In this document: piece by piece, positions 8,443-50,640 of the stretch
Numbering within the stretch: position 1 is the stretch's first letter
Layout: each line of letters opens with the position of its first letter
Source: Vandiemenella viatica
Lineage: Eukaryota; Arthropoda; Insecta; Orthoptera; Morabidae
Assembly: GCA_031002005.1 (NCBI GenBank)
Contig: CM061920.1
Span: 46,416,610 to 46,480,609 of the forward strand
Direction of reading: 5' to 3'
Length of the DNA: 64,000 bases
Position numbers and translations under genes: made by a program
The notes under the pieces: model-generated
Seen by the model: only the letters and a program-made list of their open reading frames with translations
Databases searched by the model: none
Told to the model about the DNA's origin: nothing

Positions 8443-9442
8443 NNNNNNNNNNNNNNNNNNNNNNNNNNNNNNNNNNNNNNNNNNNNNNNNNNNNNNNNNN
8501 NNNNNNNNNNNNNNNNNNNNNNNNNNNNNNNNNNNNNNNNNNNNNNNNNNNNNNNNNNNNNNNNNNNNNNNNNNNNNNNNNNNNNNNNNNNNNNNNNNNN
8601 NNNNNNNNNNNNNNNNNNNNNNNNNNNNNNNNNNNNNNNNNNNNNNNNNNNNNNNNNNNNNNNNNNNNNNNNNNNNNNNNNNNNNNNNNNNNNNNNNNNN
8701 NNNNNNNNNNNNNNNNNNNNNNNNNNNNNNNNNNNNNNNNNNNNNNNNNNNNNNNNNNNNNNNNNNNNNNNNNNNNNNNNNNNNNNNNNNNNNNNNNNNN
8801 NNNNNNNNNNNNNNNNNNNNNNNNNNNNNNNNNNNNNNNNNNNNNNNNNNNNNNNNNNNNNNNNNNNNNNNNNNNNNNNNNNNNNNNNNNNNNNNNNNNN
8901 NNNNNNNNNNNNNNNNNNNNNNNNNNNNNNNNNNNNNNNNNNNNNNNNNNNNNNNNNNNNNNNNNNNNNNNNNNNNNNNNNNNNNNNNNNNNNNNNNNNN
9001 NNNNNNNNNNNNNNNNNNNNNNNNNNNNNNNNNNNNNNNNNNNNNNNNNNNNNNNNNNNNNNNNNNNNNNNNNNNNNNNNNNNNNNNNNNNNNNNNNNNN
9101 NNNNNNNNNNNNNNNNNNNNNNNNNNNNNNNNNNNNNNNNNNNNNNNNNNNNNNNNNNNNNNNNNNNNNNNNNNNNNNNNNNNNNNNNNNNNNNNNNNNN
9201 NNNNNNNNNNNNNNNNNNNNNNNNNNNNNNNNNNNNNNNNNNNNNNNNNNNNNNNNNNNNNNNNNNNNNNNNNNNNNNNNNNNNNNNNNNNNNNNNNNNN
9301 NNNNNNNNNNNNNNNNNNNNNNNNNNNNNNNNNNNNNNNNNNNNNNNNNNNNNNNNNNNNNNNNNNNNNNNNNNNNNNNNNNNNNNNNNNNNNNNNNNNN
9401 NNNNNNNNNNNNNNNNNNNNNNNNNNNNNNNNNNNNNNNNNN
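8443..9442. other. Assembly gap, exactly 1000 N
   Basis: A run of 1000 undetermined bases directly follows a satellite unit. The round number suggests a placeholder of unknown true length. The missing part should hold the rest of the array and the 3' terminus of Helitron A. Confidence 0.99.
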
Positions 9443-14898: not shown

Positions 14899-16892
14899 TC
14901 TTATATATAAAAATCAATGTTTGTTTGTTTGTATGTTCGTCTTCTATGCGTTCCTGTACCATTTATCAGATTGCAATGAAACTTTGGAGAGTTTTCGAGT
15001 GTGCGCCTGCGAAGGTTCCTGTGAAAAAAAAATTCCAAAAAGTCGCCCCCTATTCCCCATAACACCCCATAGTTTAGGCAAAACCACATTTTTTATCCGA
15101 TTTAGATAGGAATTTGTACACTTATACTTTAAAACAAACATAAAAATACTGCCTACATACGGTTTCCGAATATTAATCCCCTCGCCCCATATCCACCCCC
15201 ATAATTTAGGCAAACCACATTTTTATATCCGATTTAGATAAGAATTTGTACATTTATACTTTAAAACAACAGAAAAATACTGCCTACGTATGGTTTCCGA
15301 ATATTCAGCCTCTCTCCCCCTTTCCAACCCCATTACGTTTTTCACCCCATAATTTAGGCAAAACCACATTTTATATCCGATTTAGATAAGAATTTGTACA
15401 CTTATACTTTAAAACAAACAGAAAAATACTGCTACGTATGGTTTCAGAATATCATACCCCTCTCCCCCTTCCACCCCATTACGTTTTTACCCCATAATTT
15501 AGGCAAACACATTTTTTATCCGATTTAGATAAGAATTTGTACACTTATACTTAAAACAAACAGAAAAATACTGCCTACGTATGGTTTCCGAATATTCATC
15601 CCCTCTCCCACTTTCCAACCCCATTACGTTTTTACCCCCATAATTTAGGCAAACCACATTTTTTATCCGATTTAGATAAGAATTTGTACACTTTATACTT
15701 TAAAACAAACAGAAAAATACTGCCTACGTATTGTTCCGAATATTCATCCCCTCCTCCCCCTTTCCAACCCATTACGTTTTCACCCCATAATTTAGGCAAA
15801 CCACATTTTTTATCCGATTTAGATAAGAATTTGTACACTTTTACTTTAAAACAAACAGAAAAATACTGCCTACGTATGGTTTCCGAATATTCATCCTGTC
15901 TCCCCCTTTCCAACCCCATTACGTTTTCACCCCATAATTTAGGCAAACCACATTTTATATCCGATTTAGATAAGAATTTGTACACTTATACTTTAAAACA
16001 AACAGAAAAATACTGCTACGTATGGTTTCAGAATATTCATTTCCTTACCCCCTTCCCCCTCCCCCCCATTACGTTTTTACCCCATAATTTAGGCAAACCA
16101 CATTTTTTATCCGATTGAGATAAGAATTTGTACATTTATACTTAAAACAAACAGAAAAATACTGCCTACGTATGGTTTCCGAATATTCATCCCCTCTCCC
16201 ACTTTCCAACCCCATTACGTTTTTACCCCATAATTTAGGCAAACCACATTTTTTATCCGATTTAGATAAGAATTTGCACACTTATACTTTAAAACAAACA
16301 GAAAAATACTACCTACGTATGGTTTCCGAATATTCATCCCCTCTCCCCCTTTCCAACCCCATTACGTTTTCACCCCATAATTTAGGCAAACCACATTTTT
16401 TATACGATTTAGATAAGAATTTGTACACTTATACTTTAAAAAAGAGCGAGAAATACTGTACACATTAATTTCACAAAAACCCAATCCCTCTCCTCTCTTT
16501 CCACCACCTTAATTACCCCCTCTTCCCCATAACACCCCATAATTTAAACAAACCCGCAAACCGTTCGTCCGTTTACGGTGAAGCTTTGGTGAGTTGTCGA
16601 CGGGATGACGGAGAAGGTTCCTGTCAAAAAAAGTTAAAAAACCCACCCCTCCTCCCCATAATTAAGACAAAACCACATATTTCATCAGATTTCAATGGGA
16701 ATTTGCACACTTATACTTTGAAACAAACAGAAAAATACTGCCTGCATATGTTTTTCCAAAGCGCATCCCCTCTCACCCTTTCCAACTGAAAATGAATGAA
16801 ACAGCAGTTTAAAATTGAATTGTAAATATTTTTCATTTAATCTATGTGCCTACTCAAGTCCAGCAATAGTGAAGCATTGCCGGGTCAGCTAG
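14899..16892 (+). mobile_element. Helitron B, complete, non-autonomous, 1994 bp, satellite-bearing
   Basis: Starts A|TC at 14899 with 'tcttatatataaaaatcaat' and ends CTAG|T at 16889-16892. A terminal hairpin lies just upstream: ccagcaat...attgccgg, 16860-16884, with an eight-base loop. All canonical Helitron landmarks are present: TC start, CTRR end, hairpin about 5 bp from the end, and insertion between A and T with no target duplication. Its leader matches Helitron A at 4178. The interior is the same 146-bp satellite in about ten to eleven units, the last two diverged. It encodes no Rep/helicase. Confidence 0.9.
15072..16470. repeat. 146-bp satellite array inside Helitron B, about ten units
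   Basis: Anchor 'ataatttaggc' recurs at about 15203, 15350, 15496, 15642, 15790, 15936, 16085, 16231 and 16377. The same two unit types seen in the array at 4361-8442 are present. Diverged units continue to about 16680, merging into the Helitron 3' region. Confidence 0.93.
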
Positions 16893-17155: not shown

Positions 17156-18047
17156 AATGAAGGGGAAAATAAGACGCCATTATTTATCTCAAAACAAAAA
17201 ATCTAGAGTTACTGCTTTTCAGCACTAGCCGATGTTGTGAAAATAATACCATGGTGGAAAGACTGTTGGAGGGTCATTCCAAGTCAATTCAACAAAGCCA
17301 TGACACCCACCGACTTGGAATTTTGATGAATCTTGGTAAGTTTAGTCTTTCTATACAGAAAAGTATGCAAATCAATTTTTTCTTCTCAATATGGTTTAGT
17401 TTTCATTTTACAGCCAATCAGAATTTTGAATGTTTGGTATTTTCCAAATTCTGACAATTCTGCTCTTTGAATGAAAATAATTAATTTTTCAGTCAATTTT
17501 TTTTTCTTTATCATTCACAGTAACATCAATGAAAGCAGGAGGATTCCAGAAAAAAATATGAAAAAAATTTAAGTAATTTTTTCTGAAAGTGTATAATACG
17601 TTAAAGTTAATATTAAACAAAGGGAATATAGTAACCCAGAAAATTCTTTTTTCCTAATTCAGTGTGATCTGTAGTTAAAAAAATAAAATTAATAGCTTTT
17701 TCATTTCTTTATATCATTTAAATTATTTCTATAAGGTATTTTTTTGTCACAAGCCTGTACAGTAGAGTCCCGCTAATCCGAACCCCGGTAACCCGAACGT
17801 CCGGTTAATCCGAACATGGCAAAGCATTACATAGTCTTAATATAAAAAATGGTAAAAATTAAAACACCCTGAAAATACAGTTCATACGCTATATAATTGT
17901 GTGGTTAACTACTGTACATGTACACAATTTTAATTTATACAGAAAAATTAGCTAGAAAAGATTAAATTTAAAAAGTGCGTAACACTGAAAGAAAAACTGT
18001 CAAACTTACGATAGTAGTTACAACGGTTAGAAACATACATTTCATCC

Positions 18048-20296
18048 CTACTTTTTAGAGCACAGAAACTCAGTAATTGTTTTTTGGCGTAATGAAGACA
18101 GTCTGTTATATGACGCAAAGTTGCACCATCGTCTGATAAACATTAAATCAGCTGGTGTAGCAGTGGTCTGTTGCTCCATATAGCGTAGTGAGAGATCAAA
18201 GGCTTCTTCCGCGTCAGTGTGACACCAACTCTCCTTTGTCACATTCCGTCTCATTGCCACTTTCGTCGTAACATTCCACTTCTACCTGGTCTTGAGTCAC
18301 AGCAGCCACTAAATCAACGTCAGTAAGGTGCTCCAGTATTGAATCATCCGCTGACATCCATTCATCTACGTCTGCTTCACAGGCTTCTTCACATCCAGGG
18401 ATTGTCTGTACCATTTTTAGGAAACTCTCCTCTTCATTTTCAGCTGGTATGTCCTGAAATTCAAGAGATGCCCATAGTTTTCTCCAAGATTTTCTCAAAG
18501 TGTTTTCTGAAATTTTCTGCCATGCCTCAGCAGCCCAATAAACCTAATCCTTCAGATTTTTTTTTTTTTTTTTTTCCAACTAAAGGAATGTTATCATCTT
18601 GGATCAGCATCTTAAGAATTGTTTTCTGTAAATCAGTTTTAATGTTTGTAGTACGCCCTGGTCCATCGGCTGTAGAAGTGGTGTAGCATTCGGCGGCAAA
18701 AACTTCGCCACGATTTCTCCATCACATAATTCATCAGTGCTGGGGTGAGATGGTGCGTTATCAATCAAAAGGATAGCATGGGGAGGCAAATTATTTTCCT
18801 TGGAAAACCGCCGGACAGAGGGAACAAACTGGTCGTGAAACCATTCTTTGAACAGCTTACCATCCATCCATGCTTTTTTCTGGTTGCGATAGTATACAGA
18901 TAGGGATTTCATGTTGCAGTTTTTGAAAGCTCTGGGGCTAACAGATATGCCGATCATCATTAAAGGGAGCTTGTGATTACCAGCAGCGTTGCTGCACACT
19001 AGTAAAGTCACACGATCTTAGCTCATTTTAAAGCCAGGAGCTTGGACTTCTGCTTTTGATGCCAGGCTTTTTGTTGGCAATGCCCTAAAATTAAGGCCTG
19101 TCTCGTCAGCATTATAAATTTGTTGGGGAGAACAATTTCCCTCTCTTATCAGTTTATTAAATTCATGCACGTATTCCTTCACTGCATCATGGTCAGAATA
19201 AAGCTTGTAAGACGCCTGTCCTTGGTTAATGGATATTAATTTTAAGTTATGATTTGATCCTGATCTGCTCACTTCAAGTAGTTTAAGACATTTATATATT
19301 AAGAATTAATTATAGTTCGAGGACCCGGTCGCCAGACAGTGAAACCAAAACCGTCCCCAGAAGTAATTAGAAGAATAATTAATAAAAGTCACTAAGCAAC
19401 ATCAAGAAGAGCAATTATGTTCATATAGCAAGTTTATTACGAAAAACACGTCAAACACATGCGAACGGTTTGGCCACCATCAAATTTCAAAGTTTAGCTA
19501 TCGAAACTTCTTATCCGAAAGATTGCAGAATTCTTGTGGTAAAAGGAAAATTACAGTTCGTATCTTCTTCCCGCTAAAACATACACCAACACGACTTAGC
19601 TTTCACTGTTCATTTATATACTGTTTTATAACCACAGTTCTTATTTAAGACATAAACTTCTTCTTACACACAGTTCAATACAGTAAAACACATTATACAG
19701 AACCTATATCGGCTAATGCCTACAATAAGTGAGCCGCGGTACGCGATCCGCTGTTTGCGACAATACGCGCGCAACCATTACTAGCGGGCGACTGACTTTT
19801 GAAAATAATGTAGCTCTCCGCTCCAGAGATACTACTTTGAAGCGGCGGAAGGTAACTGTAATGTCACAAGCTTCTCTCCAGTAATTGTTAGCTGACGAAT
19901 CCCATGACGTTTTTTAAATCTGTCCAACCAACCCGTACTCGCATTAAAAGACTCATCACCATTCATTAATTTGTTTAGGTAAATAGCTTTTTCCTGAACC
20001 ATTGGTCCACTCAGAGGAGTTCCCCTTTCTCTTTCCTGTGTAAACCAAAAGAAAAGAGCTTCATCCACTTTATCGTACTGGAACTGTTTCAGAGTCTGCC
20101 GAATCTCGAGTGTTTTTCCCGAAGACGTTGCGCAGCACTGTTCAAGCTTCACTCGGTTCTTCTTCCAATCACAAATGGTTGCCTTACCAACAACTAGTTC
20201 CGTCGCCAGCTTAGATACATTTTCACCACTGTCCAATCGCTTCAAAGCATCCAGTTTTTCTCTGAGCGTTAACGTCGTATGTTTCCGTTTACTCAT
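18048..20296 (-). pseudogene. Tigger/jerky-like transposase, interrupted
   Basis: Start ATG at 20296. The N-terminal 150 residues hold a psq/CENP-B type helix-turn-helix (LTLREKLDALKRLDSGE) and a second CENP-B-like half ending 'WLDRFKKRHGIRQLTITGEKL'. The frame is then broken by foreign DNA (about 19290-19868). It resumes at 19272 with 'IYNADETGL' (first Asp), 'LLIDNAPSH' (second Asp) and 'LLQPMDQGVL' (third Asp), so all three catalytic residues of the DDE/DDD core are visible. An in-frame stop lies at about 19018 and a frame change near 18604, followed by an acidic C-terminal tail to 18048. Such transposases cut and paste DNA at TA sites. This copy cannot make a full protein. Confidence 0.85.
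19290..19868 (-). mobile_element. LTR-like insertion inside Tigger 1 transposase
   Basis: The transposase frame is lost exactly where the minus strand shows 'tgtgacattacag' (start at 19868). A GC-rich patch with many CpG follows, then an AATAAA signal (minus strand, about 19430), then 'ctggcgaccgggtcct' near 19330. TG start, internal poly(A) signal and a TGGCGACC string resembling a primer-binding site are features of an LTR with adjoining leader. The other end near 19290 is not sharply defined and I find no clear target duplication. Confidence 0.5.
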
Positions 20297-20611
20297 GGCG
20301 ATAACACTCTAGTGTATACGAATTTTGTAAGTGTATTAGCGATCGATTGCTAAGATTAACTCAGCAGTTCGCGAACCGTCTGAGAGTGCACTGACCACGA
20401 ACACTTCAAACATCTCAACAATAAAGGGAGGGAGTGAGAGTGAGCCATTGTTCACCCAGTTGTTCCCAATTGTTACCATGCTGTACCAACTTATATGCTT
20501 GGTATACTTCATTGTAGAAATTAGTCACTGTAACTCCGGCTAATCCGAACAAATCGGTAATCCGAACAAGGCCCGGTCCCAATTAGTTCGGATTAGCGAG
20601 ACTCTACTGTA

Positions 20612-22385
20612 TCTTCCTTCATACTTAACCGAAATCAATGAATGAGGTGTCATTTTAAAGCTTATGGTCTCCACTTTAGTCACATCATATTTCAAGAAAG
20701 AAAGTTTTCGGAATTCGACCCTTAAAGGGCAAAAATGTCAAAATGTCTAAAATGCTGTTTTCTGTGTTACGAGTCATTTATCTCCCTGGATACCTATCTG
20801 AAATCATTTAATGAAGTATCATTTTAAAGATTAAGATCTCCGCATTAGTGGCGTCATATACTAAGACAAATTTTTTTTGGAATTCGACCCTTAAAGGGCA
20901 AAAGTATCAATGCGTTTTTGTGACACGAGCGATTTATCTCACTTCATATCTAACCGATACAGATATATGTGGTAGCATATTAAAGACTAAGGTTTCCGCT
21001 GTGGTAACATTATATTTTAAGAAAGGAATTTTTCGTAATTCGAGCCGTAAACGGAAATATTGTAAATTTTTCTAAATTCTGTTTTTTTGTACCTCGAGCC
21101 ATTTATCTCCGTGGATACCTAACCAAAATCGAAAAATCAAGTAAGATTATGAGGAGTAATGTCTCAGCTTTGGTGACATCATATTTTAAGAAAGAACTTT
21201 TTTGGAATTCAACCCTTAAAGGAAAAAAGTAGAAATGGTTTTTCAATGCATTTTGGTGTCACGAGCTATTTATCTCCCTTGATGTCTAACCGATATAGGT
21301 AAATGGGGTATCATATTAAAGACTAAGGTCTCCGCTGTGGTAACATTATATTTTAAGAAAGGAATTTTTGGTAATTCGACCCTCAAAGGGCAAAAATTTC
21401 AATTTTTCTAAAATGCGTTTTTTTGTGTATCTAGCCATTTATCTCCATGGATATCTAACCAAAATCGATAAATGAAGTAGGATTATGAGGAGTAATGTCT
21501 CAACTTTGTGACATCATATTTTAAGAAATAATGTTTTTTGAATTCAACCCTTAATGGGAAAAAGTATAAATTTTTCTACAACGAATTTTTGTGTCACGAG
21601 CGATTTATCTCCCTTGATATCTAGCCGATATAGATAAATGAGGTAACATAGTAAAGACTAAGGTCTCCGCCATGGTAACATTATATTTTCAGAAAGGAAT
21701 TTTTAGTAATTCGACCTTTAAAGGCAAAAATGTCAATATTTCTAAAATGCATTTTTTGTGTCTTGAGTCATTTATCTCCCTTGATAATTAAACAAAATTG
21801 ATAGACGTGGTATCATTTTAAAGATTGAGGTCTTCAAAAGGACTTAGGTTCTGTTACACCACATTTTAAGAAAGAAATTTTTCAAAATTCTAACCTTAGA
21901 GGGAAAAAGTATTAATATTTCTACAACCCATTTTTCTGTCACAAGCTATTTATTTCCCTTGATACCTAACCGAAATTAATAAATGAGGTATGGTTTTAAA
22001 TATTAAATTATCCGCTTTAGTCGCATCATATTTTATGAGAAAACTTACTCCAAAAAGGGGCAAAAATATTATCATTTCTAGAACTTTTTTTTTTAACTCG
22101 CTTGATAACTAACCAAAATCGATAAATGAGGTATCATTTTAAAGACCAAGGTGGCTGCTTTGGTCACACCGTATTTTATAAAAGAAATTTTTGAATTCGA
22201 CCTTTCAAGGGCCAAAGTATCAATATTATTTCTACAGCATGTTTTTTTTAATTATTATTATTTACAAGCCATTTATCTTCTTCGATACCTAGCCGAAATC
22301 GATAAATATAATATAGTTTTAAAGATTAAGGTCTCCAGTTAGGTAAAATCATAAATTAAGAAAGTTTTTTTTTTGGAATTCAGTG
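20612..22385. repeat. 167-bp tandem satellite of Helitron C, about ten units
   Basis: The phrase 'tttatctcc' with its neighbours recurs near 20773, 20935, 21102, 21266, 21440, 21608 and 21773, then in more diverged form to about 22270. The period is about 162-174 bp. Each unit contains 'aaccgaaatcgataaatgag', 'aaggtctccgc' and 'attttaagaaag'. Half a unit lies left of the Tigger (about 17735-17757), showing that the Tigger split the array. There is no sequence relation to the 146-bp satellite. Confidence 0.9.
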
Positions 22386-23060
22386 CTTAAAGTGGTAGCG
22401 CGTATGAGAAAGTTCAGAACCAAGTCCCTTGATTGCAGCAGCAGATATCACAGAGATGTAAATAAACTTTTTTTTTATTCAATAAGTAGCTTTTCGGATA
22501 TTTTTTTCTGTTATGAAAACACTTTCGTTTTGCCATACAATTCCGATGTAAAAATTTTATTCGCACAGCAACAAATATCACAGATATGTTGATATGTTAT
22601 GTGTATTTGGTTCAGGTTGGTTGTATCCTGTTAAGGTCAGTGACAGTTTGTCGTAAATACAGAGGGTTTTAAAATTTCCTAACTGTTTAGTAAAATGTTG
22701 TAAGTATTTTGATGCATACCTATTACACTAAAAAAAATATTTGTTACAAAACTAAGGTTCTACTTTTCATTATGTTACAAGCATTCAACCTCACTACAAC
22801 CCGCGAAATTTTCACACGGGTCGTCTAGTATACTTTTAAAATTAAATATAATTTTTGTAAAATTTTCTTTATCCAATTTGTTTACATAGATATATATTAT
22901 TTGCTGGAAAAAAGAGTTTCAAACACAATTTTTAATGTGTTATTTTATTAAACATTGAGCATATATCAGAACGGCTTGTTATTTCTATTATTTACAAAAG
23001 ATTTTTTATTTAATTTTTTTCCCCTCTGAAATATTGATTGAACTTCTTTTATGTAATATG

Positions 23061-24203
23061 ATGATTAATATTTTATTAACCTTTATAGCTTCAAGTTTAT
23101 GTGGATTTGACAAACAGAAAATACTTATGTAAACAATACATAACATTCAAGAAAATTTAACTAAAATATACCATAACAGAAATTTTTGGCTATTAATTTC
23201 CATTGGATGTTTTCCGAGATATAGTACTATTTAACTTCTTTAAACTGACTCATCCTTCTTGGATCATCCTCAAATAGTCTGTAGGTAATTGATAGACTCT
23301 TTCTGTTGACGTTGCTGGAGGGTCTACAACAACAAGTAGATGTGAAATTGGCACAGGGCAGATATCTTCTCGCTTTGGCCAATAAAATGATGGTGAGGGT
23401 CCTTGGGGATGCAAAAATTTCTTCATCACATGTAATGTTGCTTGTATGTACGATAACTTTTAGGATTGTTCAGACCTCAATGAAGAAGAGGGGGATGCTA
23501 CAATTAAATTTTTGCATCCCCAAAGACCCTCACCATCATTTTACTGGCCAAAGCAAGAAGATATCTGCGCTGTGCCAAGTGCACATCTGCTTGCTGTCAT
23601 AGACCCTGATCTATTTCTTTTTTGTAGTCTTGATTCAGGTCGCCAGGGACAAATGTCCCGTTCTTACCTCGTTCGGTGCTTTAACTTTCACACTTATTCA
23701 TTTAACTTTCTATTCAAATAATGATAAACTTTAATACATATTTCATTGACATTTATTATCATTTCACTTCATTAGTAAATATCCAAAGAATACAACGGTC
23801 CTTTGCCTTCAGTAACTTTACAACATCAACTCAAAACGCGAACTAAACTTTTCCTCTCTCTTGCCCGATCTTATGGCTATCTTGTTACCCTCTGGTCTCC
23901 ATAGCTACCAATTTATTGTTATATTATGTCTTCTCTAAGTAATCTGTTATGCCACAACCCTACAGCAACATCAACTGGAAGAGTCTATAAATTCCCTACA
24001 GACTGATTGAGGATGAGCCAAGAAAGGATGAGTCAGTATAAAGAACTTACTACATCTAGGAAAACATCCACTGGAAAATAATAGCCAAAAAATTCTGTTA
24101 TGGTGTTTTTTAGTTAAATTTTTCTTAAATATTACATATTGTAAATATAAGCATTTTCTATTTGTCAAATCCACATAAACTTGAATCTATAATGATTAAT
24201 AAA
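23061..24203. repeat. Inner part of the foldback: paired arms around the 87-bp loop
   Basis: Left 23061-23418 and right 23506-24203 (minus the insert 23608-23956) are inverted copies. Landmark pairs: 'caagtttatgtggatttgac' at 23093 with its reverse near 24165, and 'aaaatgatggtgagggtcct' near 23384 with its reverse near 23530. Transcribed through, this would form a long hairpin RNA. It is not a gene in itself. Confidence 0.9.
23608..23956 (-). mobile_element. 349-bp LTR-like insertion in the right foldback arm
   Basis: Flanked by direct repeat ACCCT (23603-23607 and 23957-23961). The left arm shows the same place without the insert. On the minus strand it starts 'tgtggcataacag', contains AATAAA-like strings and ends with 'ctggcgacctgaatc' and a short A-rich tail. 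The TGGCGACC string is shared with the insert at 19290-19868. A solo LTR, or an LTR-derived non-autonomous element, is the likeliest reading. Confidence 0.6.
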
Positions 24204-24731
24204 ATATTTTTTATTATTATTATTTATATGGCTTTCGGCCTTATCAGCCACATAGCCAAGTTCTTTGCGTTTTATTACAATTCAAATTTCATTACTTTAC
24301 AGTTCTGTTTACATAGTTTAACAGTTTACATTTCATTTCCTTTACAGTTTTTAAAAATACATAATTTACATTACATTACTGTTCTATACACAACAGTTTA
24401 CATTGTATGATCTTTTACATTTCTATTCTTTTACAGTTCTATATCTATCTGTTTACTTCTTGGTGCTATACTATGAGTCTACATGTAATCACTTACTTTA
24501 TTATATTTCTTATCTGCGCCGTAGAGTGTTTATTATACAATTTGTGGGATATCTTAATACTATTTGGGTCAATGTATAGCACTGGTGCCCTAATCGTTCA
24601 CAATGGTCTCAAATTCTAGTAATATGACTGGCTAATATGTTTGAGGATATATCTGTTCAAGTGGTGTACGATTGTAAATGTACTAACTTTGTTCCCATCG
24701 TTTTCTGTTGGATTTTCTACTTGCCTAAAAT

Positions 24732-25673
24732 CTATAATTGGATGTTTCCCTCCTTAAAGAAGGTCATTATGATTTTGAGTATTTCGTATTTATTTGAGGC
24801 GAGCAGGATGGAAGCGTTGGTTGGGAGAGGAATGTTACATTTTGCGAGTTCTTTTAGGATTCTGTCCTGAATGTGGGCATATTTCTGGCATGAGAAGAGA
24901 AGATGGTTTATATCCCCTACTGCCTGATCAATGCAATCGCATAGTAGGTTGTCTCTCAATCCTATCCGCTTTAAGTGGCTGGGAAAGTTGCCATGATGAA
25001 ATCTGCTTCTGATGATGTTGGTTAAGTGGCGTCTGTTTACTTTCCAGTTATGGAACCATGGTTTGGAAGGGATGACTGGTTGGATGCGGCCGTAAAAAGC
25101 ACCTTTCTGTTTCATAGAGTTGTTCCATCTTGACTGCCATGTTTTCGTCTCTCCCTGTTTAATATCATGCAGGAATACGGATGGAGGGAGTGTTAGTTCT
25201 ATTCTTTGTCCGTTTGAGATGGTTTCTTTGGCAAGTCTATCTACATATTCGTTGTATTTGATCCCTTTGTGTGAGGGTACCCATATTAACCTTGTTTTGA
25301 TCCCTAGGTTGTTGCTGAGGTGTATTTCGTGAAGTATTTCTTCTAGCAAGGGTGCCATCTTATAGTTCCACTTGGGTTCTGAAATGCTCTTGATAACGCT
25401 CAAAGAGTCGGCTATTATAACCACCTCTTTTGGTCCCCTGGTCTGGCCATATCTTACTGCTTCTAATATTGCTTCTGCTAAATATATTGGAGTTTGCGGT
25501 GGTAACGAATGTAATGTTTGGTGCTGTGTTTTGGGGCAATATATAGCGCTGCCTACTCGATCCCCGGAGTTGTTTTTGGATCTGTCTGTATATATGTAGA
25601 TTGTGTTTGTGTCCGAGTTGTCTAGCAGGGCCCTCAGGGAATAGTTGGCGTTGGTTCCCGTCGTGTGCTCCAA
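24732..25673 (-). pseudogene. I-like LINE: RNase H domain and C-terminal zinc-binding motif
   Basis: A 313-residue open stretch. RNase H active-site blocks are all visible: 'IYIYTDRSKNN' (Asp), 'YLAEAILEAV' (Glu), 'VIIADSLSVI' (Asp) and 'WVPSHKGIKYNEYVDRLAK' (His/Asp). It is followed by 'LLCDCIDQAVGDINHLLFSC', a Cys-Cys-His-Cys arrangement typical of the end of LINE ORF2. RNase H removes the RNA template during second-strand synthesis. This domain is intact in itself but is no longer joined in frame to the RT upstream. Confidence 0.88.
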
Positions 25674-25697
25674 GCACTGTACTCGTATCTCTAGAAA

Positions 25698-27422
25698 TCA
25701 GAGATGGTAGGGGGCTTGGAATATCGGGTGTATGGGGAACTTCGTTATGTTGCTTCCCCTTTCCTCCAACTTGTTGTACATGTTAAGTAGGGGGGTGTTT
25801 TTTAGGGTAGCTGTGTGTTTATTTGCGTTCTTGTGCGCCCAGTATTTAAGATTACTCAACCGTTCCTTCAATGGGTGTGTAGTGATGTTCAGTTTTTCCA
25901 CTATGAATTTCTCTGAGAGTTGTATTCTTCTTATGAAGAGAGGCATTTCGACAGCTTCTACTAGTTGTGCGTTGGCTGGTGTGGATCTTAGTGCTCCTAA
26001 GCATGTTCTAAGGCAGCGATATTGCAAAGAGTCCAGTTTTTGCAAAGCGTCTTTGGTGCCGTTTGCGTAGAAGATGCTGCCGTAATTGATTAAGGATCTG
26101 ATAGTTGATTTGTATAGAAGTAGAAGTGCGTTAGGATGGGATCCCCATCTTGATCCCGCCACTGCTCTTAAGACGTCGCTTGTCTGATTTGGCCATTACA
26201 TCTCGGATATGTTCTCTCCACGTAAGCCGGGAGTCTAGTATCATACCCAGCAAACGAATCTGTTTATTCACTGAGAATGAGTGGGGTCCTAATTGTATCC
26301 TGGGTAATTCGGGAATTTTCCGTTTGGAAAATATCACCACTGATGATTTGTCGTTCGAAATGTCTAGTCCATTATGGAACGTCCACTTAACAAACACCCA
26401 TATCGCTTCGTTCAATTGTTCGAAGACATCTTCTATTGTTGAGCATATAGTGTATATTACTATATCATCCGCAAATTAAAGGGTTAATATTCTGGGAGAA
26501 AAGATCTTATCTAAGTCGTGCGTGTATATTATATAAAGGAGGGGACTTAATATCGCTCCTTGTGGGAGTCCATTGTAGACCCAACGGGGGCCTACCAATT
26601 CACCTGGAGTTGAGATATATATGATCCTTTCCGATATGAGGGAGTGGATCCCTGCTACAAACTGATGTGGAATTCCAAGGTGGAGAGTTTTTGCATTAGA
26701 ATGTTAGTTACAACGTTGTCATAAGCTGATGAGATATCTAGAAATATTGCTCCTAAGTATTGTTTGCATTTAATTCAATGTTAATATCTGTGGTTATTAA
26801 TGCTATGTTATCAAGTGTACTTTTCCCCTTTCTAAATCCAAATTGTGATGTAGGTAATAAGCTGTTCCTTTCTAGCCACCATTCTAGTTGATTTTTTATG
26901 ATGCACACTAAAGTTTTGGAAACGCACGACGTTAGAGAGATAGGTCTGAAAGATTCAGGGTGAATAGGATCTTTGTTCGGTTTCTTAATAGGTATGATAG
27001 TCTGCGTTCTCCACTCTATGGGGGTCTGTTCTTTCATCCATATTTCGTTAAAAATTTTAGTTAGGAGCTGAAGGGTGGAGGTAGGCAAGTTATATAGCAT
27101 CAAGTAATGTATTCTGTCTTTACCTGGTGTCGTGTCTGAGATTTGCTTAATGTTTTGCTGTACCTCCCTCACAGTGAATGGGACACATAGTTCGTGTTCG
27201 GAAAGTTGTTCTGGTTTCAAAAAATATTTTTTTGTGGTTTACACTATCTGGTGCAATTTTTTTCGCTTTAGCCTCTACACATGAGTTGGGTATGTTCGTG
27301 CTTGCTAAGGGAGTTTTCCTATTCTTCAAGCATCTTATTTGCTTCCAAATGGAGCTCATATTTGTATCTTTCCCTAGGTTATCGCAGTATTTTATCCAAC
27401 TTAGACGTTTCTGTGTTCTCAA
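25698..27422 (-). pseudogene. I-like LINE: reverse transcriptase and thumb/connection region
   Basis: Pieces in three frames give 'IPIKKPNKDPIHPESFRPIS' and 'FGFRKGKSTLDNI' (27220-26753), 'QGAILSPLLYIIYTHDL' and 'FADDIVIYTI' (about 26600-26450), 'LLGMILDSRLTWREHI' (26415-26131) and 'YGSIFYANGTKDALQKLDSLQYRCLR' (26162-25698). These are the fingers, palm (with FADD) and thumb of a LINE reverse transcriptase. At least three frameshifts or stops separate them, so the enzyme is dead in this copy. Confidence 0.85.
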
Positions 27423-27801
27423 TGTTCGTTTGGTGTTTGCACATGTTTGTTTATAGGTTAAATAGTGTTCTAAGTTCCTTTCGATAGTTCCTAAGCGCTA
27501 ATCTTCTTTTCGCCACTGCTTTGGAGCACTCCATATTCCACCAAATTGTTGGGGGATTTTTGGCGTATTTTGGTCATCCTTTGAGCGGAATTGATTTATC
27601 TGCTGCTGTTGTTATTGCAAGTGATAGTTATCTGCAGGCCTCCGTGCCCGATTTGTCAGTGGGGATACTCCTAACTTCCTCCTCTAAGCATTGTTTATAC
27701 AGTACCCAATCCGCTTTGTTAATGTTCCAGTGTTTTGTGGGGTGTTCCTTCCACCCATAGTTGATGTTACAACCTATGGTGAGTATGATAGGTAAGTGAT
27801 C

Positions 27802-28134
27802 TTATCCTAAACTGTTGTTCAGAGTTTGCCACGTAACTAGGGGTGCAATACTTGGGGAGCAAAGAGTTAAGTCGACAGCTGATGGGTTCCCGCCTACTCT
27901 TGGGATTAATGTAGGGGATCCGTTGTTCATTATAACGAGATTTTGGTCTTCTGTCATTTCTATTAAGGCAGATCCATAGGAGTCTTCTTGCTGACAGCCC
28001 CAGCTTCTACTATGAGCGTTAAAGTCGCCCGCTATTAGATAAGGGGGGGTGTAACTGTTTGAAGAGGTTACCCCAGTTGGTTCGACTAATTCTAGTTCGT
28101 TCGCGGAGGGCAGTACAGAGATACTATTGAGCAT
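27802..28134 (-). pseudogene. I-like LINE: apurinic endonuclease-like domain
   Basis: A 110-residue frame with 'LIAGDFNAHSRSWG' (the GDFNAH block of AP-type LINE endonucleases) and 'NPSAVDLTLCSPSI' (the DLT block before the SDH motif). It nicks target DNA in active elements. Upstream N-terminal parts lie in decayed frames at about 28140-28480. Confidence 0.8.
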
Positions 28135-28538
28135 TCAAGCTTCTTAAGTCGTAGTCAGATTGATATTACTTAGAAAGGGAGTTTTGTGGAATTCAATTTT
28201 TCAGGTTCGTGGGGTATATGATGTAGGACCCAAATTGCAACTCCTCCTTTTCCGTCTGGTCTATCGTCTCTGGATGTCTTATAGTATTTTAAGTTAATAT
28301 CTTTCTGTGGTTTCAGATAATAGTGCAATATCTATTTTGCTGTTACGCAGTTCATTGTACAAGCTTTCCCTATTAGAATACACGGATCTTCCGTTCCACT
28401 GAAGGTTAAGTTGTGTAGTATGTGGAGGGGACTTGTGAGGTCTTACATTAATTGTAGGGTTCATGGATCGGAGGATTTAATAATCTGTTGAAGTGAATTC
28501 ATTACTTGTGTTGTATCGACCGTGCCATTGGTTCTGAT

Positions 28539-28737
28539 ATATTATTATTATTATTGTATTTACGTCTCTCAACATCGAGGTCTTTAGAGACGGGAAAGGA
28601 TGGGGGGCAAGGATGGGGGCAAGGATGGGGGCAAGGAATGGGAAGGAATTCGGCCATGGCCTTTTGAAGGAAGCATCCCGGCATTTGCCTGGAGTGATTT
28701 GGGAAACCATGGAAAACCCAAATCTGGATGCCCGGAC
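28539..28737 (-). mobile_element. tRNA-derived SINE, 5'-truncated, in the I-like LINE
   Basis: Flanked by an 11-bp target duplication TTGGTTCTGAT (28528-28538 and 28738-28748). It matches the full-length SINE at 56634-56903 in inverse orientation. It starts at 'gtccgggcatccagatttgg' read on the minus strand, has the 'ttttccatggtttccc' core, a C-rich middle in three short repeats, and a (TAA)n tail (28539-28556). The tRNA-like head is missing. Confidence 0.92.
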
Positions 28738-29039
28738 TTGGTTCTGATCAGCTCAATCATGGATATTAGTAAAGTCATCAATTTTTCTACCATTGGGGTT
28801 TCAGTCGCTTGGGACTGGTGCCCCTCTGGCTGCTGATAATTTTGTAATGTTTCTGTCTTTCTATGTGGGAGAGGTGGATACGGATTGTGGGTTATAGGGT
28901 AACTTGGTCCGTTACTTCTCCACATTAAATTTTAGAGAGTTCTAACTTCATTGCATGTTGAACTTAAGTTTGCTGTCCTAGCGTACGGCTGTAGTTGTTT
29001 TGATCGATAGCAACGTGTTTGTTCCGGTTGATGTACAGG

Positions 29040-29475
29040 TCATTGTGGTTTAGATTGTAGTATTGGATATCTCTCTCCACAGGGAGTAATAAGAGGGTTG
29101 TTTCTGGTCTGAGAGTGAGGCAAGGTTGTTAAAGGTGGGAATTTGGTGGGATTGTTAAACTGAGGGCAAGGATTAGCTGCTATTTGGGAATAGAATCTGT
29201 TTTCAAATGTAGCCACAGCTTCGCTGTAGCTGACATTGTTGTATACCATGTACTGTTGGATTGCTTTTGCTTTCTGATAATTAGGACACGAACGGTCAGT
29301 TGCTAGGTGTTGATCAGAGCAGTTGGCGCAAAGTGGTGGTACTGTATTTGGGCACGAGTCAACATTGTGGTCTGCTGCACAGAAACTGCATTGTGCCTGA
29401 CTGCGGCACTGATTACTGCCATGTCCAAATCGCAAACATTTATAACACTGAATGACGGTGGGGATGCATTAATCA
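29040..29475 (-). pseudogene. I-like LINE ORF1 (gag-like) with CCHC zinc knuckles
   Basis: Minus-strand frame beginning 'VIQCYKCLRFGHGSNQC' (first CCHC), then 'CSFCAADHNVDSC' and 'CANCSDQHLATDRSC', followed by a Pro/Asn-rich tail. Triple zinc knuckles are typical of ORF1 nucleic-acid chaperones in the I and Jockey groups. It is truncated at about 29475, where the foldback arm resumes; the N-terminal half of ORF1 is lost, as in 5'-truncated LINE insertions. Confidence 0.85.
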
Positions 29476-30261
29476 TCATATTACATAAAAGAAGTTGAAT
29501 CAATATTTCACGGGGAACAAAAAAGAAATGAAAAATTCTTTTGTAAATAGTATAAATAACAATCCATTCTGATAGATGCTCAATGTTTAATAAAATAACA
29601 CATTAAAAATTGTTTTTGCAACTCATCATTTTCCATCAAATAATATACAGCTGTGTAAACAAAATGGATAATGAAAATTTTTCAAAAATTACATTTAATT
29701 TTTGAAGTATACACAAAGAAATTTTATTTTTTTAATGACAGAACACACTTCTGAGATAATTAGGGAATTTTTTTTTTTTTTTTTGGGTTACTATATTCCC
29801 TTTGTTTGATATTGACTTTAACGTACTAACTACATACTTTCAGAGAAAAATTCATAAAAATGATTTTTTCCCTATTTTTAAAATATTACTTGGATTTTTT
29901 CATTTTTTTCTGGAATCCTCATGCTTTCATTGATATTACTGTAAATTTTCATAAAAATTGACTGAAATATAAATTATTTTCAGTAGTCAGAATTTGGAAA
30001 ATACCAAACATTCAAAATTTCAGTTGGCTGTAAAATGTAAACTAAACCAAATTGAGAACAAAAAATTGATGTGGAAACTTTTCTACGAGGACTAAACTAA
30101 CCACGTTTCACCAAATCCGAGTTTTTGGGTGTCAAAAATGTCATTTTTTTGGTCTGAATTCAAATGGAATGACCCTGGAGCTGAACACTAAAAAGTGCCA
30201 AGACATGCACACAATGTTTTTGTTTTTTGTTTCTGGCTTTACTCCTTGTCAACATCATTTA

Positions 30262-30425
30262 GGCAGTGAACAGGAAGAAATTTTGCCAAGGCATTTTGGA
30301 GGAAAAATCCCAGCATTTCGGGAAACCATGGAAAACTCAAATCGGGACGGCTGGAAGGGGGATTAGAACCTGTGTCCTGCCAAATGCATGGCCGGTGCGT
30401 TATTGCTCACCCACCTCACTCTGTA
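30262..30425 (-). mobile_element. Diverged tRNA-derived SINE
   Basis: On the minus strand: an A-box/B-box-like head (B box 'ggttctaatccc' near 30365) followed by 'gatttgagttttccatggtttccc', the same core as the SINEs at 56634 and 28539. It is older and shorter; no target duplication is recognised. Confidence 0.65.
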
Positions 30426-30823: not shown

Positions 30824-32877
30824 CAGTAATACCCCGCTTTACGCGACCCCGTTATGCGCGGTTTCGCTTTAACGCGAATTTCAAATTTCGCGTTAAAATG
30901 CCTCGTATTACGCGAATTGCTTACTTAAGAATATGTATGTCCATAATGTAGTCATTGGCTTCTCTTTGGTCGCGGGAATCCCCGCTTTCTCCGACCATTC
31001 TGATCGAAGAATTGAGGATTCCCCGTCCTACGACTTTGTTCTATGGGAATTCCCTCATTTGTTCCATTTGTTTATCTCGGCTGGCAGTCGTGTTTTAACG
31101 TTTGGTGGAGATACATAATGTAACGCTACGTTAGAAATGCCGCATACGAAGAAAAAATAGCGTAAAAGCGTAACTTTGGAATTGAAGATGAAGATGATAA
31201 GAAGAAGGGAAAATGGAGGAAAAGCAACAATTGTTGGCAGAGATTTTGGTCTTTCAGAATCGACTGTGAGAACGATTTTTAAAAATTGGGACAGAATTAA
31301 ACTTTCCAGCGAAAGTTCAACACCTATATGTGCAACAAAACTTCTCGTTCGATATCTTCTATCCTAGAAAGAATGGAGAAGTTGCTAGCAGTCTGGATCG
31401 AAGATTTAAATAAGAAGAACACCCCACTGAGTCAAGATCTCTTATGCACAAAAGCAAAATCTTTGTATGAGATGTTAAAGAGAGAAGAAGTTGACTTCCA
31501 CTCCGACTTTTGTTGCCTGCAGAGGCTGATTTCATCGGTTCAAGCAGCGTTCCAATCTTCACAATATCCAGATAACAGGTGAGGCCGCCAGCGCGGACAC
31601 TCAAGCTGTGTAGCTTCAGCTGAGTTTCCAGACAAGTTTCAAGATTTCGTAGCACGAGAAAAAATTCCAGTTTGTCTGGTCTTCAATAATGAGGCTTTAC
31701 TGGAAAAAAAAAATGCCATCTCGAATATTCGTTTCTAAAGAAAAACGCCAAGCCAGCGGTTTCAAAGCTGCGAAAGATCGACTAACACTTCTGCTGGGTG
31801 GTAATGCCACTGGTGGTTTCAAACTGAAACCTTTACTGGTTTACCATTCAGGAACACATCGTGCAATGCGAGGTACAGACAAGACAAACCTACCATCCGT
31901 GTAGCGGTCCAACAGAAAGGCGTGGGTTACACGGGAAATTTTTCAAGATTGGTATTCTAATAGTTTTTGGCAGTCAGTAAAATCCTACTGTGACAGAAAT
32001 AGGTTTGAACGTAAAGTTATATTACACTTAGACAATGCCCTGGACATCCAACCTCACTTGATACGCCGAGAGACTTAAAAGTGTACGTGAAGTTCCTTCC
32101 ACCAAACACTACGTCAAAATTACAACCTATGGTCCAGGGAGCAATAGCAAACTTCAAAGCTTATTACCATCGCCGCACTTTTAGCCAACTAATTCATGAA
32201 ACTGACGGGGAAGGAAGACAGTCTATTCACAACATAGACGAGTGTTGGAAAGAAGTTAAAAAGAGTTGTATAAACAGGGTGTGGCGTAATCTTTGGCCAG
32301 ATGTAGTGGAAGCACCTAGAAGAATTGTCCAAATGCACAGACAAGTGCTTGAAGACATTGCTGCAATGATTGAGGGGTCTGAACTTGAAGATGTGGCGGT
32401 AGAAGATCTTGAAGAACTTGTAGCAACTCACGACGAACCTCTCAGCAATGAAGATCTGATCGAGTTACAGAATAATTTCATAAACGATGAGGAAGGACAA
32501 GTAGAAGAGAGAATTTTATCTTCAAGCGGAATACAAAGTATTCGTTCAAAAATTTATTCAGGTTTGGACATATTGCATAGATAGTGATGATGACCGTGTT
32601 TGAACCGTGTGTCAAACAATTAAAAACAGCGTTGGCTGGACGTATTTTAGAAGAACGTAAAAGAAATGCTACCCAAAAGACAATAGATGTATTTTTTCCA
32701 TAAAAAGAAATGTAATACTGCATAAAGTGTTCTTAGAATTAAAGAGATTGATTCAAATGATTTTTTTTTTTTGTATTAACTTTTGACTCTGTTTAATCGT
32801 AAACCCCGATATACGCGAATTTCACTTAACGCGATTTTTTGCGGAACGTATCCCTCGCGTAAAGCGGGGTATTACTG
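30824..32877 (+). mobile_element. Tigger/pogo-type transposon 2 (2054 bp)
   Basis: Terminal inverted repeats 'cagtaataccccgctttacg' at 30824 and its reverse at the right end, flanked by TA (30822-30823, 32878-32879). The subterminal region repeats 'ttacgcgaa'-type motifs. It encodes a plus-strand transposase. It is a different lineage from Tigger 1, since the termini and protein differ. Confidence 0.93.
31137..32703 (+). pseudogene. Tigger 2 transposase, inactivated
   Basis: The likely start ATG is at 31137 and is followed by a stop at codon 8. The helix-turn-helix follows (GGKATIVGRDFGLSESTVR), then a second DNA-binding part (SSILERMEKLLAVWIEDLNK), '[19 protein letters not shown]', 'LHLDNAL' (second Asp, about 32028), and 'FLPPNTTSKLQPMVQGAI' (about 32090-32140), where the third catalytic Asp is replaced by Val. 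The acidic C-terminal region ends 'KTIDVFFP' at 32703. Frameshifts lie near 31320, 31500, 31700 and 32045. The missing catalytic Asp shows that cutting activity is lost. Confidence 0.88.
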
Positions 32878-40830: not shown

Positions 40831-41044
40831 CTACGATGACACATGACCTTATGCGGGAGGCATGCTCCACCCACAACAAAACAGTGTTTCAAACTATTCA
40901 AATGGAAAAGAGATGAATATATGAATAATTTTTTACTCATTGTGACTTCATTTTGAAAGTGTAAATAAACTGTGTGCCTTAACATTATGCTTTCATTTAT
41001 GCAAATCGAATTTAATTTAATTGCAATGAAGCACATGCTCCGGT

Positions 41045-43255
41045 TGCAATTTCCCTACACACCCAACTTCCCCCTATCCTACACTCACCTACAGTTGCCC
41101 TCTACAAATTTTAACTTTAAATTCTTTTAACATTTTCGGTAGGTTATTCATCATTCCCCTTGGTAACTTATTTCAATCCCTGACACCCTTACCTAAAAAA
41201 TAAAATCTTCCCACACCCTTGTGCCTGAAATCGAGTGCCAGCTTATGGTCATGGTCATCTTTTCCCTTCCATGAACTTACTTTTCATACCTACTGCAATA
41301 TCTTTCCATGCCTCATCACCAGTATACGCCCTGTACACTCCCATGACCCTCCTCATCCTCCTCCTGTCTTGCAATGAATCCCATTCCAGCTCCTTTATCA
41401 TATCTGGCACTGATTGCATTCTGCGATAATTTCCAGAAACAAATCTAGCAGCCCTTCTTTGCACCTTCTCCAACTCCTGTATTTGATACTCAAAATGTGG
41501 GTCCCATACTACACTACCATATTCGAGCAATGGTCTTACCAAAGTTTTAGTAACCCAATTCCTTTACTTCTCTCGTGCATTTCCCTCATCACTCTCTCCA
41601 ACAAGTGCAGAATTTTGAAACCTTTTGCTACCACCTGTCCAATGTGTCCTGCCCAGTTAAGCTTGTTATCAAATGTAATACCAAGATATTTACATTTCAA
41701 GTCTTCAGCAAGCAATTCTTTCCCCACCTTATATTCATAATTAACCTTTTGTTTTTTATTTGTGTATCTACTTAGCTGCCTCTTCTTTGCATTTATCTTC
41801 ATCCCATGTTTACCAACCCAACTAGATATCCTGTCCATATCACCCTGCAACTGTTTACAGTCCTCTATCGTTTTGATCCTTTTATACAGCATTATGTCAT
41901 CTGCAAACAATCTAATTTCGGATAGTAAACAATCAACACAATTAATCATTAGAATAATGAATAGCAATGGTCCCAATATGCTACCCTGCGGCACTCCCAT
42001 TTTTACTTCCACTTCCTTTGATACCGCATTTCCCACCCTAACTTTCTGTTTTCTACCTTTTAAAAATTCTTCTACCCAGCAAATCACTTTCTCATCCACT
42101 CCAATAGTTTTTACCTTATTTACTACCATTTTGTTGCTTACTCTGTCAAACGCCTTTCAAAGATCTAGTGCTACACTATCTATTTGGCCTCCCTTGTCCA
42201 TTTCATCTGAAATATCTTGCATATATCCCACCAACTGAGATTCGCATGAATATCCTTGCCTGAACCCATGTTGCCTACTTGAAAACCACTTATGTTCCTC
42301 ACATACATTTCTGATGTGGTTGCATATCAATCTTTCCATTAATTTACCTACCACTGAAGTCAAACTGATTGGCCTGTAATTTTCAATTCTATTTCTCACC
42401 CCTCCTTTATGTACCGGTACTACTATCACACTTTTCCAGTCTTGTGGTAAGCTGCAAGTATCCAGACTCAATTTAAATAATATTTCAAGATAAGGTACAA
42501 TGTCACATCCGACTATCTTTAAGATATCTGTAGTAATATTATCTGCACCAGCCCCTTTATGTTTTTTCAGCTTGCTTATTTCCTTCATGATTTTCTCAGG
42601 ATAAATTTCAAATTTTTTACTATCTTCATTTCTAATCGTATTGTTAAGCTCGTTCTCAGAATTAGACCTTCCCGTTTCTGATTCATTGTCCCTAATGCTC
42701 TCACTAAACCAGTTACTTAAAATCTCTGCCTTCTTCAAATCCTCAGTAACTACTTCTCCATCCTTATCTATGAGCATCTCTACACCCTCCCTTCCCCTCA
42801 GTTTCCTGATATAGCCATAGAAATTTCTAGATGCATCAGTCAGTGGTCCTCCTGCACTGACAATACTCTTCATAAACCCATCTTTAGCCACTTTCTTTGC
42901 TGTTATTAAGTCCTTGTTTAGTTGTTTCAAATATTCCCTACTACCCTTCTGTCTCTTAACTCTGTTATGTTCTCTTTCTACCAACCTCTTTAACCTTTTC
43001 ACTTCCCTATTATAGTACACAGGTTCTCTACTTCTCTTTATATTCTGCTTTGGAATGAATTTTTCTTCCCCCTTTCTTATTATCCCCTTGAACTCTTCCC
43101 ACCTTGACTCTACTGTACTTGTGCCTTCCTTCCATTTGCTGAAACGTTCTCTGAATATCTCTTCAAATTTTAAATCTGTGCTTTTTTATAATTGTACCTT
43201 TTCCCCATTCAGTTTTGGCTGCTGGTTCACTGAATCCTCTAATATCCATCAAACT
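41045..43255 (-). mobile_element. CR1-like LINE (copy 3), best preserved, 5'-truncated
   Basis: Runs on the minus strand from about 43255, at the endonuclease-RT linker that is shared with copy 2 at 11121-11360, to the 3' end near 41045 ('atttccctacacaccc' on the plus strand). It encodes most of ORF2 downstream of the endonuclease. Its 5' edge abuts the SINE-like head of the right R2 copy. Confidence 0.85.
41255..43020 (-). pseudogene. CR1-like LINE reverse transcriptase (ORF2, C-terminal two thirds)
   Basis: 43020-42157 gives 287 residues: a basic linker, 'SKLKKHKGAGADNITTDILK', 'RNRIENYRPISLTSVVGKLM', 'HGFRQGYSCESQL', ending 'VALDL' at a TGA. The same frame continues 'KAFDRVSNKMV' to 41536 with 'MGVPQGSILGPLLF' and 'EIRLFADDIMLYKR' (catalytic FADD present) and 'CKYLGITFDNKLNWAGHI'. 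After a frame change near 41540, 'LLEYGSVVWDP' and 'KVQRRAARFVSGNYR' follow to 41255. One stop and about two frameshifts in 590 codons make it a fairly recent pseudogene. An RT copies element RNA at a nicked target. Confidence 0.88.
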
Positions 43256-43620: not shown

Positions 43621-44967
43621 CGAGGGGCGTTTTTTTTTTTTCAATCTCTGATTGAACAGCATAGAGACCAGACGAGTCGCTTGTGGGCAGTGTGCGCAGT
43701 AGACGTTTGCGCATCTCCCCTACGACACACTCTGTGTTTGGCGCGTTCCTGACTTCATTCTGTGCCAAGCTACAGTCAAAGAAACATGGCCGCGTTCATC
43801 AACTCTCCCGCCAAGTGCGAGTTACGAAGTATTATTCATTTTCTGCAAGCAGAAGGGAACAGTGCAGCAGAAATCCATCGAAGAATGAGCCAAGTGTATG
43901 GAAAGAGTTTTATGAGTGAAGGAGTCATGCGCGAGTGGTGCAGAAAATTTAAAGAAGGCCGAACTGATTTGCATGTTGAAGGAGGTCAAGGACGCAAATC
44001 TGTCGCTACAGATGACCTTGTTCAACGGGTTGACAAAGTGGTAAGAGAAAACCGTAGGTTTACAATAAATTCATTATCAATGAAATTTCCAGAGGTCTCC
44101 AGATCTTCTCTGTACTCCATCGTGACAGACAATTTACACTACAAAAAAATCTGTGCTCGCTGGGTCCCTAAAATGTTGACCGATAACCACAAAATTCACC
44201 GAATGGCATCGGCTTTAAAGTTCCTTGCCCGTTATAACGCAGATGGAGAAGATTTTTTTTAAATCAATTGTGACTGGAGATGAGACATGGATTCGGTATG
44301 AGACACCCAAAACGAAACAACAATCCCAACAATGGATGCACACAAATTCACTGAACAAACCAAAAAAATTAAAGAGACCTTCAAAACCGAAAGTTTATGG
44401 CTACCGTGTTTTTGGACCAAAAAGGTGTATTGCTTGTGGAGTTGATGCTACCGAGGTACCATGATTAATGCAGCTGTTTACTGTGAAACTTTAAAACGTT
44501 TACGGAGGGCCATTCAGAACAAAAGAAGAGGTATGCTGACTTCTGGCATTGTTCTGCTCCACGACAACGCTCGCCTCCACAGTGCTGGTGTCACCCAGCG
44601 ACTTCTTGAACAATTTCAATGGGAGATTTTTGATCACCCGCCATACAGTCCCGACCTAGCACCAAGTGACTTTCATCTTTTTGCTGAATTGAAGAACTGG
44701 CTAGGAGGGCAGCGGTTCCGGACCAACGAGGAACTTCAAGACAATGTGATGACTCATTTAAACTCATTGGTGGCAACATTTTATGAAGAGGGTATGGGAC
44801 AGCTTGTCCACAGGTATGATAAATGTCTTAATCTTCAAGGTGATTACTTTGAAAAGTAACCATATGTGTACCATAATAGTTGTTAATAAAATATTTTTTT
44901 CCATGTCCATTTGTCTTTTATTTATGGCCTATCAGAGGTTAAAAAAAACAAAAAAAAACAGCCCTCA
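43621..44967 (+). mobile_element. mariner transposon, full length (1347 bp)
   Basis: Ends 'cgaggggcgttttttttttt' and inverted 'aacagccctca', with TA on both sides (43619-43620, 44968-44969). The length is normal for mariner. It is inserted in the right R2 copy. Confidence 0.92.
43786..44859 (+). pseudogene. mariner transposase with frameshifts
   Basis: ATG at 43786 (MAAFINSPAKCELRSIIHF). The N-terminal helix-turn-helix pair is intact (EIHRRMSQVYGKSFMSEGVM; RFTINSLSMKFPEVSRSSLY). A run of T near 44255 breaks the frame. The next frame shows 'SIVTGDETWIRYETP' (first Asp), and after a second break near 44400-44460 'IVLLHDNARLHSA' (second Asp) and 'PPYSPDLAPSDFHLF' (third Asp, the D34D spacing of mariners). 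It ends 'LQGDYFEK' at 44859. All catalytic residues are present, but the protein is split in three frames. Cut-and-paste at TA. Confidence 0.9.
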
Positions 44968-49427: not shown

Positions 49428-50640
49428 ATGGGCACCACTGAAACACCAGTAGGGGGAATAGACATAGAAGATGCCAGCAAGTACTATGGTGTTCAGGCTG
49501 TCCAAGATATTATTGATGATGTTCTGGGAGTGTTTTCAGATATTCCGGGACGTGCACGGGGTGTCAGCTGTCGGCTGAAGGTTAAAGAAGCAAAACCATT
49601 TGTGGTCAAATCATATCTGATCCCTGAGTCAGAGAGAATTCCATTGAATGAGATTTTTGAAATTGTTAGACTTAGTGAGTTCATACTGGCAAGTGCCCCT
49701 TGAAGAAGAGTAATGGAAATACACTGCCTTTCGGTTTGAAGGGCAATGATATCAGTTTTGTATCATTCCATTCGGACTGAGTAATGCCGTGGCTAGTTTT
49801 ATACGGGCTTTATATCAAATCTTGGGAAGCGAGCTCAGAGAGAAGATACAGTTGTATGTGAATGACATTGTAATAGCTTCAAAAACACTGGAGGAGCACC
49901 ACGAAACTCTTCAGGAAGTGCTAATGGTGTTGAAGAGGGGGGGCATGACCCTCAAATGGAAGAAGTGTGTGTTCCTAAGAAGGAGTTTAAATTTTCTTGG
50001 TCACATGATTAGCCCTGAAGGGATTTCCGCAGACATCCAGAAATTGGAGGCAATTGAGGGTTTTCCACAGCCTAGCAATAGGACCGAATTGAGAAGTTTT
50101 ATGGGCTTATGTGGGTACTATCGGAAATTCATCGGAGACCAAGCCCTAAACAGTCTGTACTTAACCAACCTCTTGAAAGTCAAGACCTCTTGGGAGTGGA
50201 ATACAGCATGTGAGGATGATTTCAATAAAATCAAGTGGTCACACTTGAGCAGTATTACTTTGGCTCATCCAGATTGGAGCACAGACATGTGCCTGGATAC
50301 TGACAGCTCCCAATATGGGTTAGGTTCAGAGCTTTTCCAGGAGGTGGAGGTTAACAGAGTAATGGAGCATCGAACTCTAGCATTTGCCAGCAGGATGCTT
50401 AACAAGCATGAACAGAGGTATATAATGATCGGAAAGGAATGTATTTCTATTATATGGAGTTTTCAGAAGTTTGGTTATATGTTCTTCGTCCACAAAACTA
50501 TTATTTACATTGACCACAAGGCACTAACCTTTTTAATGAGTTTCTGATTAGTGCAGGAAAGATTGGCCCGATGGGTACTACTTATGCAAGAATTCCGATT
50601 TGAGATTAGGTTCCAGTCGGGAAACAAGAATACACTGTAG
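49428..50640 (+). pseudogene. gypsy reverse transcriptase and RNase H
   Basis: The N-terminal part ends 'VKSYLIPESERIPLNEIFEI' at about 49670. The fingers/palm segment with motif A is absent (deleted near 49700). The protein resumes with 'YQFCIIPFGLSNAVASFIRA'. Motif C reads YVND (49855-49866) instead of YVDD. Then come 'LNFLGHMISPEGI' and 'LRSFMGLCGYYRKFI', followed by RNase H with 'MCLDTDSSQYGLG' and 'IIYIDHKALTFL', and 'RLARWVLLMQEF' after a stop near 50548. Loss of motif A plus the changed motif C shows that this copy cannot polymerise. Confidence 0.85.

Follow-up and report, generated by a model that had tools for sequence, protein, structure and literature searches.

According to the sources cited here, the Sola superfamily is characterized by a DDD transposase, 4-bp target duplications, and terminal inverted repeats (TIRs) of 11–1124 bp (PMC10741241); insect miniature inverted-repeat transposable elements have been assigned to Sola1–3 (PMC5199201), and the target duplications of slime-mould Sola2 are AT-rich (AWWT, ATAT, AAAT, ATTT; PMC3627910). 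The target duplication of Kolobok is TTAA (PMC9587614). Two Drosophila elements with long inverted arms are Tetris, which has 8–10-bp duplications and tandem repeats of ~220 bp in the arms (PMC4079207), and Galileo, which is assigned to the P superfamily and whose arms are internally repetitive. Among the literature matches listed, no Sola foldback is named. Here, we analyze a foldback element in a 64,000-nt stretch of Vandiemenella viatica DNA (contig CM061920.1, positions 46,416,610–46,480,609; hereafter, the window), which is probably a non-autonomous foldback DNA transposon derived from a single end of a cut-and-paste transposon, moved in trans, and later split.

Arm matches were found by self-comparison of the window, followed by block-wise alignment against 200 mononucleotide shuffles. 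Four matches, colinear on opposite strands, each score above all 200 shuffles:

17270–17690 against 30176–29720: inverted match 1, 348 of 395 aligned bases identical, score 313, shuffle maximum 39
22828–23069 against 29712–29468: inverted match 2, 218 of 241 aligned bases identical, score 345, shuffle maximum 41
23067–23323 against 24208–23957: inverted match 3, 220 of 250 aligned bases identical, score 323, shuffle maximum 28
23319–23420 against 23607–23506: inverted match 4, 92 of 102 aligned bases identical, score 154, shuffle maximum 23

A preliminary description of this DNA had assembled one inverted repeat from separated blocks, with colinearity under self-alignment set beforehand as a test; the repeat is confirmed, and the order of its blocks is indeed colinear. 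Over non-overlapping blocks, the arms agree in 871 of 984 aligned bases; the alignment contains 119 gap columns, the Kimura distance is 0.125, and the identity per block is 87–90%. With corrected boundaries, the left arm (17271–17713 and 22829–23420) comprises 1035 bp and the right arm (23506–23606, 23961–24208, and 29471–30175) 1054 bp. Most of the earlier block boundaries are retained with shifts of 0–5 bp, while the third right-arm block begins 17 bp earlier than had been proposed. The middle between the arms is 85 bp long, and the whole element, excluding inserts and their duplications, comprises 2174 bp. Its parts are as follows:

17267–17270: TGGA, left copy of the 4-bp target-site duplication
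17271–17713, plus strand: left arm, outer block, starting GGGTCATTCCA
22829–23420, plus strand: left arm, inner block, whose minus strand codes the transposase C-terminus, with tblastn matches running from 23420 downwards
23421–23505, plus strand: middle ("loop"), a remnant of transposase coding sequence that runs on into the right arm, with one stop and a 3-residue loss
23506–23606, plus strand: right arm, inner block, coding the transposase C-terminus on the plus strand
23961–24208, plus strand: right arm, middle block
29471–30175, plus strand: right arm, outer block, ending TGGAATGACCC
30176–30179: TGGA, right copy of the 4-bp target-site duplication

The outer boundaries are TGGA-GGGTCATTCCA at the left and TGGAATGACCC-TGGA at the right, in agreement with the TGGA earlier noted on both sides, and an exact 11-bp terminus is common to both outer ends, the element ends being GGGTCATTCC. 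At the base composition here, the chance of a 4-mer match between the flanks is ~0.005, and because of this low value together with the exact terminus, TGGA is assigned as a target-site duplication.

Outward from the middle, both arms open with one shared peptide, LHPQ.PSPSFYWPK.EDIC.VP, matching two proteins, P0001 (87 aa) and P0002 (843 aa); the inner ends of both arms code the C-terminus of the P0002 protein family. In a tblastn search of the window with 121 proteins, all 236 alignments start within 23100–23999, on both strands. At E<0.001, the minus strand is matched by 117 and the plus strand by 118 of the 121 proteins, with the best scores of 105.0 and 79.3 bits, respectively, against 31.2 for controls. 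Minus-strand identity to P0002, P0003, and P0004 is 59–66%. The plus-strand match (P0002 residues 749–815 against 23413–23604, 49% identity) crosses the supposed loop, hence, the middle is transposase gene sequence that forms part of the right half. The left arm is an inverted copy of this half and ends ~85 bp before the inner end of that half. The view of the middle as a spacer has to be abandoned, as P0002-like coding there runs on into the right arm on the plus strand; likewise, the element does have known relatives, the arms belonging to an identifiable transposase family. The plus-strand reading is disabled by the stop and by the 3-residue loss, the latter evident against all five full-length relatives aligned in this region. 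The element retains no more than roughly the last 95 residues of the transposase, disabled and without the catalytic part. What is new here is that the inner ends of both arms code a transposase C-terminus and that the middle continues the same gene upstream on the plus strand.

The P0002 family is annotated as "uncharacterized protein" and has members in arthropods, Hydra, and sponge. P0002 itself shows no match in Pfam at E≤10. Its relatives carry three near-invariant aspartates (D511, D595, and D636) and an integrase-like core, and for this reason the family is identified as a transposase.

The proposed origin of the element is as follows. An ancestor with a DDD transposase of ~840 aa would have lost the 5′ end together with most of the gene; the remaining 3′ end, i.e., the last ~55–95 codons, ~0.85 kb of non-coding DNA, and the terminal TGGAATGACCC, would have joined an inverted copy of itself head-to-head, yielding two copies of the 3′ terminus. 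Since the same terminus is present at both ends, a full-length relative could mobilise this transposase-less element, and such a relative would have supplied the transposase in trans, leading to insertion with the 4-bp TGGA duplication. Later, the foldback would have decayed and been split by three unrelated insertions. We infer this order of events, the one-end duplication, and the movement in trans; the inverted repeat, the coding content of the arms and the middle, the transposase features of the relatives, the duplication, and the inserts are observed.

Two observations would suit other origins: the TIRs of Sola reach up to 1124 bp (PMC10741241), and a single copy of the element has been examined. 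The length of Sola TIRs would suit an autonomous parent with ~1-kb TIRs reaching into the end of the gene, the window copy being a simple internal deletion; but such a parent would carry its gene end twice, and here the C-terminal codons are repeated on both sides, the repeat stops inside the gene, and only the right side carries the reading further, so that we consider this variant unlikely. The single copy, in turn, would agree with an inverted duplication made in place by repair of broken DNA, the element never having been mobile in the foldback form. Against this stand the exact 11-bp terminus at both outer ends, the same flanking 4-mer (chance about 0.005), and P0001, in which the same sequence is known from another source and which appears to share the damage of the middle; duplication in place is, hence, very unlikely. 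For P0001, whose source is a 2071-bp contig, the first 12 residues resemble a shifted frame from 23396 (by eye, 7 of the 12 are identical), which suggests that it may derive from a copy with part of the same damage in the middle.

The undivided foldback could have formed a hairpin of ~1 kb, and it has to be asked whether its main significance lies in supplying double-stranded RNA and small RNAs that silence the parent transposon. An unbroken inverted repeat of ~1 kb would yield a long hairpin transcript, and the arms match the gene end of the parent family; the present arms, however, are decayed and broken by three inserts, differing at 113 of 984 aligned bases, and we give this explanation very little credence.

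The insertions splitting the transposon-derived foldback, and the element nested in the first of them, are:

17714–22828, plus strand: insertion 1, Helitron-like, starting TC after A and ending with a hairpin and CTAG before T, with a ~167-bp tandem array
17760–20609, minus strand: Tigger/pogo-type element nested in insertion 1, with a TA duplication
23607–23956: insertion 2, a 350-bp TG...CA unit, with an ACCC duplication at 23603–23606 and 23957–23960
24209–29467, minus strand: insertion 3, a non-LTR (long terminal repeat) retrotransposon, with a 3-bp overlap ATT

All three interruptions resemble ordinary insertions, and as each interrupted place is intact in the opposite arm, the pre-insertion site can be read directly. 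The earlier proposal of a single former mobile unit, with a 4-bp target duplication and later split by insertions, is supported. Insertion 1 sits between A17713 and T22829; its TC start and its end, a 5-bp stem followed by CTAG, are Helitron hallmarks. Of 65 CTAGT sites, 2 are preceded by a stem of at least 5 bp with at least 3 G/C: one is the end of insertion 1, the other lies at 19002 in the Tigger element; since the scan also picks the latter site, the hairpin is helpful, though not proof of a Helitron end. The nested Tigger/pogo-type element contains a DDE_1 transposase piece at 18604–19017 (E=4.1e-36, Pfam). Insertion 2 is read as a solo LTR. Insertion 3 matches RVT_1 (E=1.3e-9) and RNase_H (E=1.4e-10) and is apparently 5′-truncated, being cut within the first open reading frame (ORF), where a zinc knuckle is seen by eye and the Pfam match has E=8 only.

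A short repeat at about 28541–28737 is nested in insertion 3. This dispersed repeat, SINE-like (short interspersed element) by appearance, has another copy at 56703–56895 and a partial copy at 30262–30355 that adjoins the right end of the foldback.

The target site of the foldback contains a reverse transcriptase-like motif in the left flank, with 23 residues matching the reverse transcriptase of the window itself (E about 4e-4). Across the joined TGGA, one of three frames is open for at least 64 codons; the window's own reverse transcriptase has no match across the joined flanks, and no reverse transcriptase relative spans the junction. The foldback appears to have inserted into what was left of an older reverse transcriptase gene, which gives weak additional support to a former mobile unit.

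Two different Helitron-like elements with long tandem arrays are present in the window, insertion 1 and an element at 14899–16892. The latter starts with TCTTATATATAAAAATC after A, contains a 147-bp tandem array, and ends with a GCAAT/ATTGC hairpin followed by GTCAGCTAG before T; a homologous start is found at 4178, with a 27-copy array of the same unit. A run of 1000 N at about 8443–9442 lies directly at the end of a 146-bp array, hence, the array may exceed its assembled length. A further tandem array, with a 111-bp unit in 9.3 copies, occupies 832–1862. Other repeats include two ORFs at 43753–44859, mariner-type transposase by eye, the second of which (44446–44859) matches DDE_3 (E=4e-8); a pogo/Tigger-like DDE_1 transposase remnant at 32015–32584 (E=2.5e-9); an LTR-retrotransposon-type reverse transcriptase with RNase H at 49750–50547; and apparent copies of one non-LTR retrotransposon at 40996–42304 and 55276–57954, 78–82% alike, the latter interrupted between about 55892 and 57298.

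The related-locus search found no DNA relatives of the foldback in viral contigs. The sole locus in genome contigs matches in one short motif of a CxxCH-rich ORF, by eye a multihaem cytochrome, and is attributed to chance. The terminus-pattern search of viral contigs gave four loci with 21–24-bp matches (23/24 in one of them, L002) and no trustworthy further arm match; these are also treated as chance, judged without a formal expectation.

The transposase coding sequence in both arms would be a record of how a foldback can arise from a single end of a cut-and-paste transposon, and it links the foldback with a DDD transposase family that is widespread but lacks a Pfam model. Since long hairpin elements can give rise to rearrangements and to double-stranded RNA, a known parent aids their annotation. 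Should there be further copies, the origin of foldbacks by one-end duplication becomes directly testable.

Compared with the known systems, the element, with inverted arms of ~1.04 kb around an 85-bp middle, belongs to the foldback structural class; it is unusually built, although the general type is known. Similar to Tetris and Galileo, it has long inverted arms, a middle without an intact gene, and a target duplication; it differs from them in the 4-bp length of the duplication and in the arms, where the tandem-repeat scan found no repeats with score ≥50. The flanks have only TGGA in common, in contrast to the 8–10-bp duplication of Mutator (as given for Tetris), and TGGA also differs from the TTAA of Kolobok. 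With the P0002 family, the element shares the C-terminus, coded in both arms, whereas full-length members have the DDD core and the element has only the C-terminal remnant. As for Sola, the DDD transposase is seen in the P0002 parent family only, as the window copy lacks the catalytic part; the 4-bp duplication is represented by TGGA in a single copy; and the arms of 1035 and 1054 bp fall within the TIR range of 11–1124 bp, the difference being that transposase coding sequence lies within the foldback arms. TGGA also differs from the AT-rich duplications reported for slime-mould Sola2 elements. Assignment to the Sola superfamily is somewhat favored, provisionally, by the description of the superfamily rather than by a reference Sola protein. 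It is conceivable, if rather doubtful, that the element represents a lineage of foldbacks belonging to neither the Mutator nor the P superfamily, derived by inverted one-end duplication of a DDD (Sola-like) transposon, with arms carrying a piece of the transposase C-terminal domain and with P0001 as a second copy, the disabled form having multiplied.
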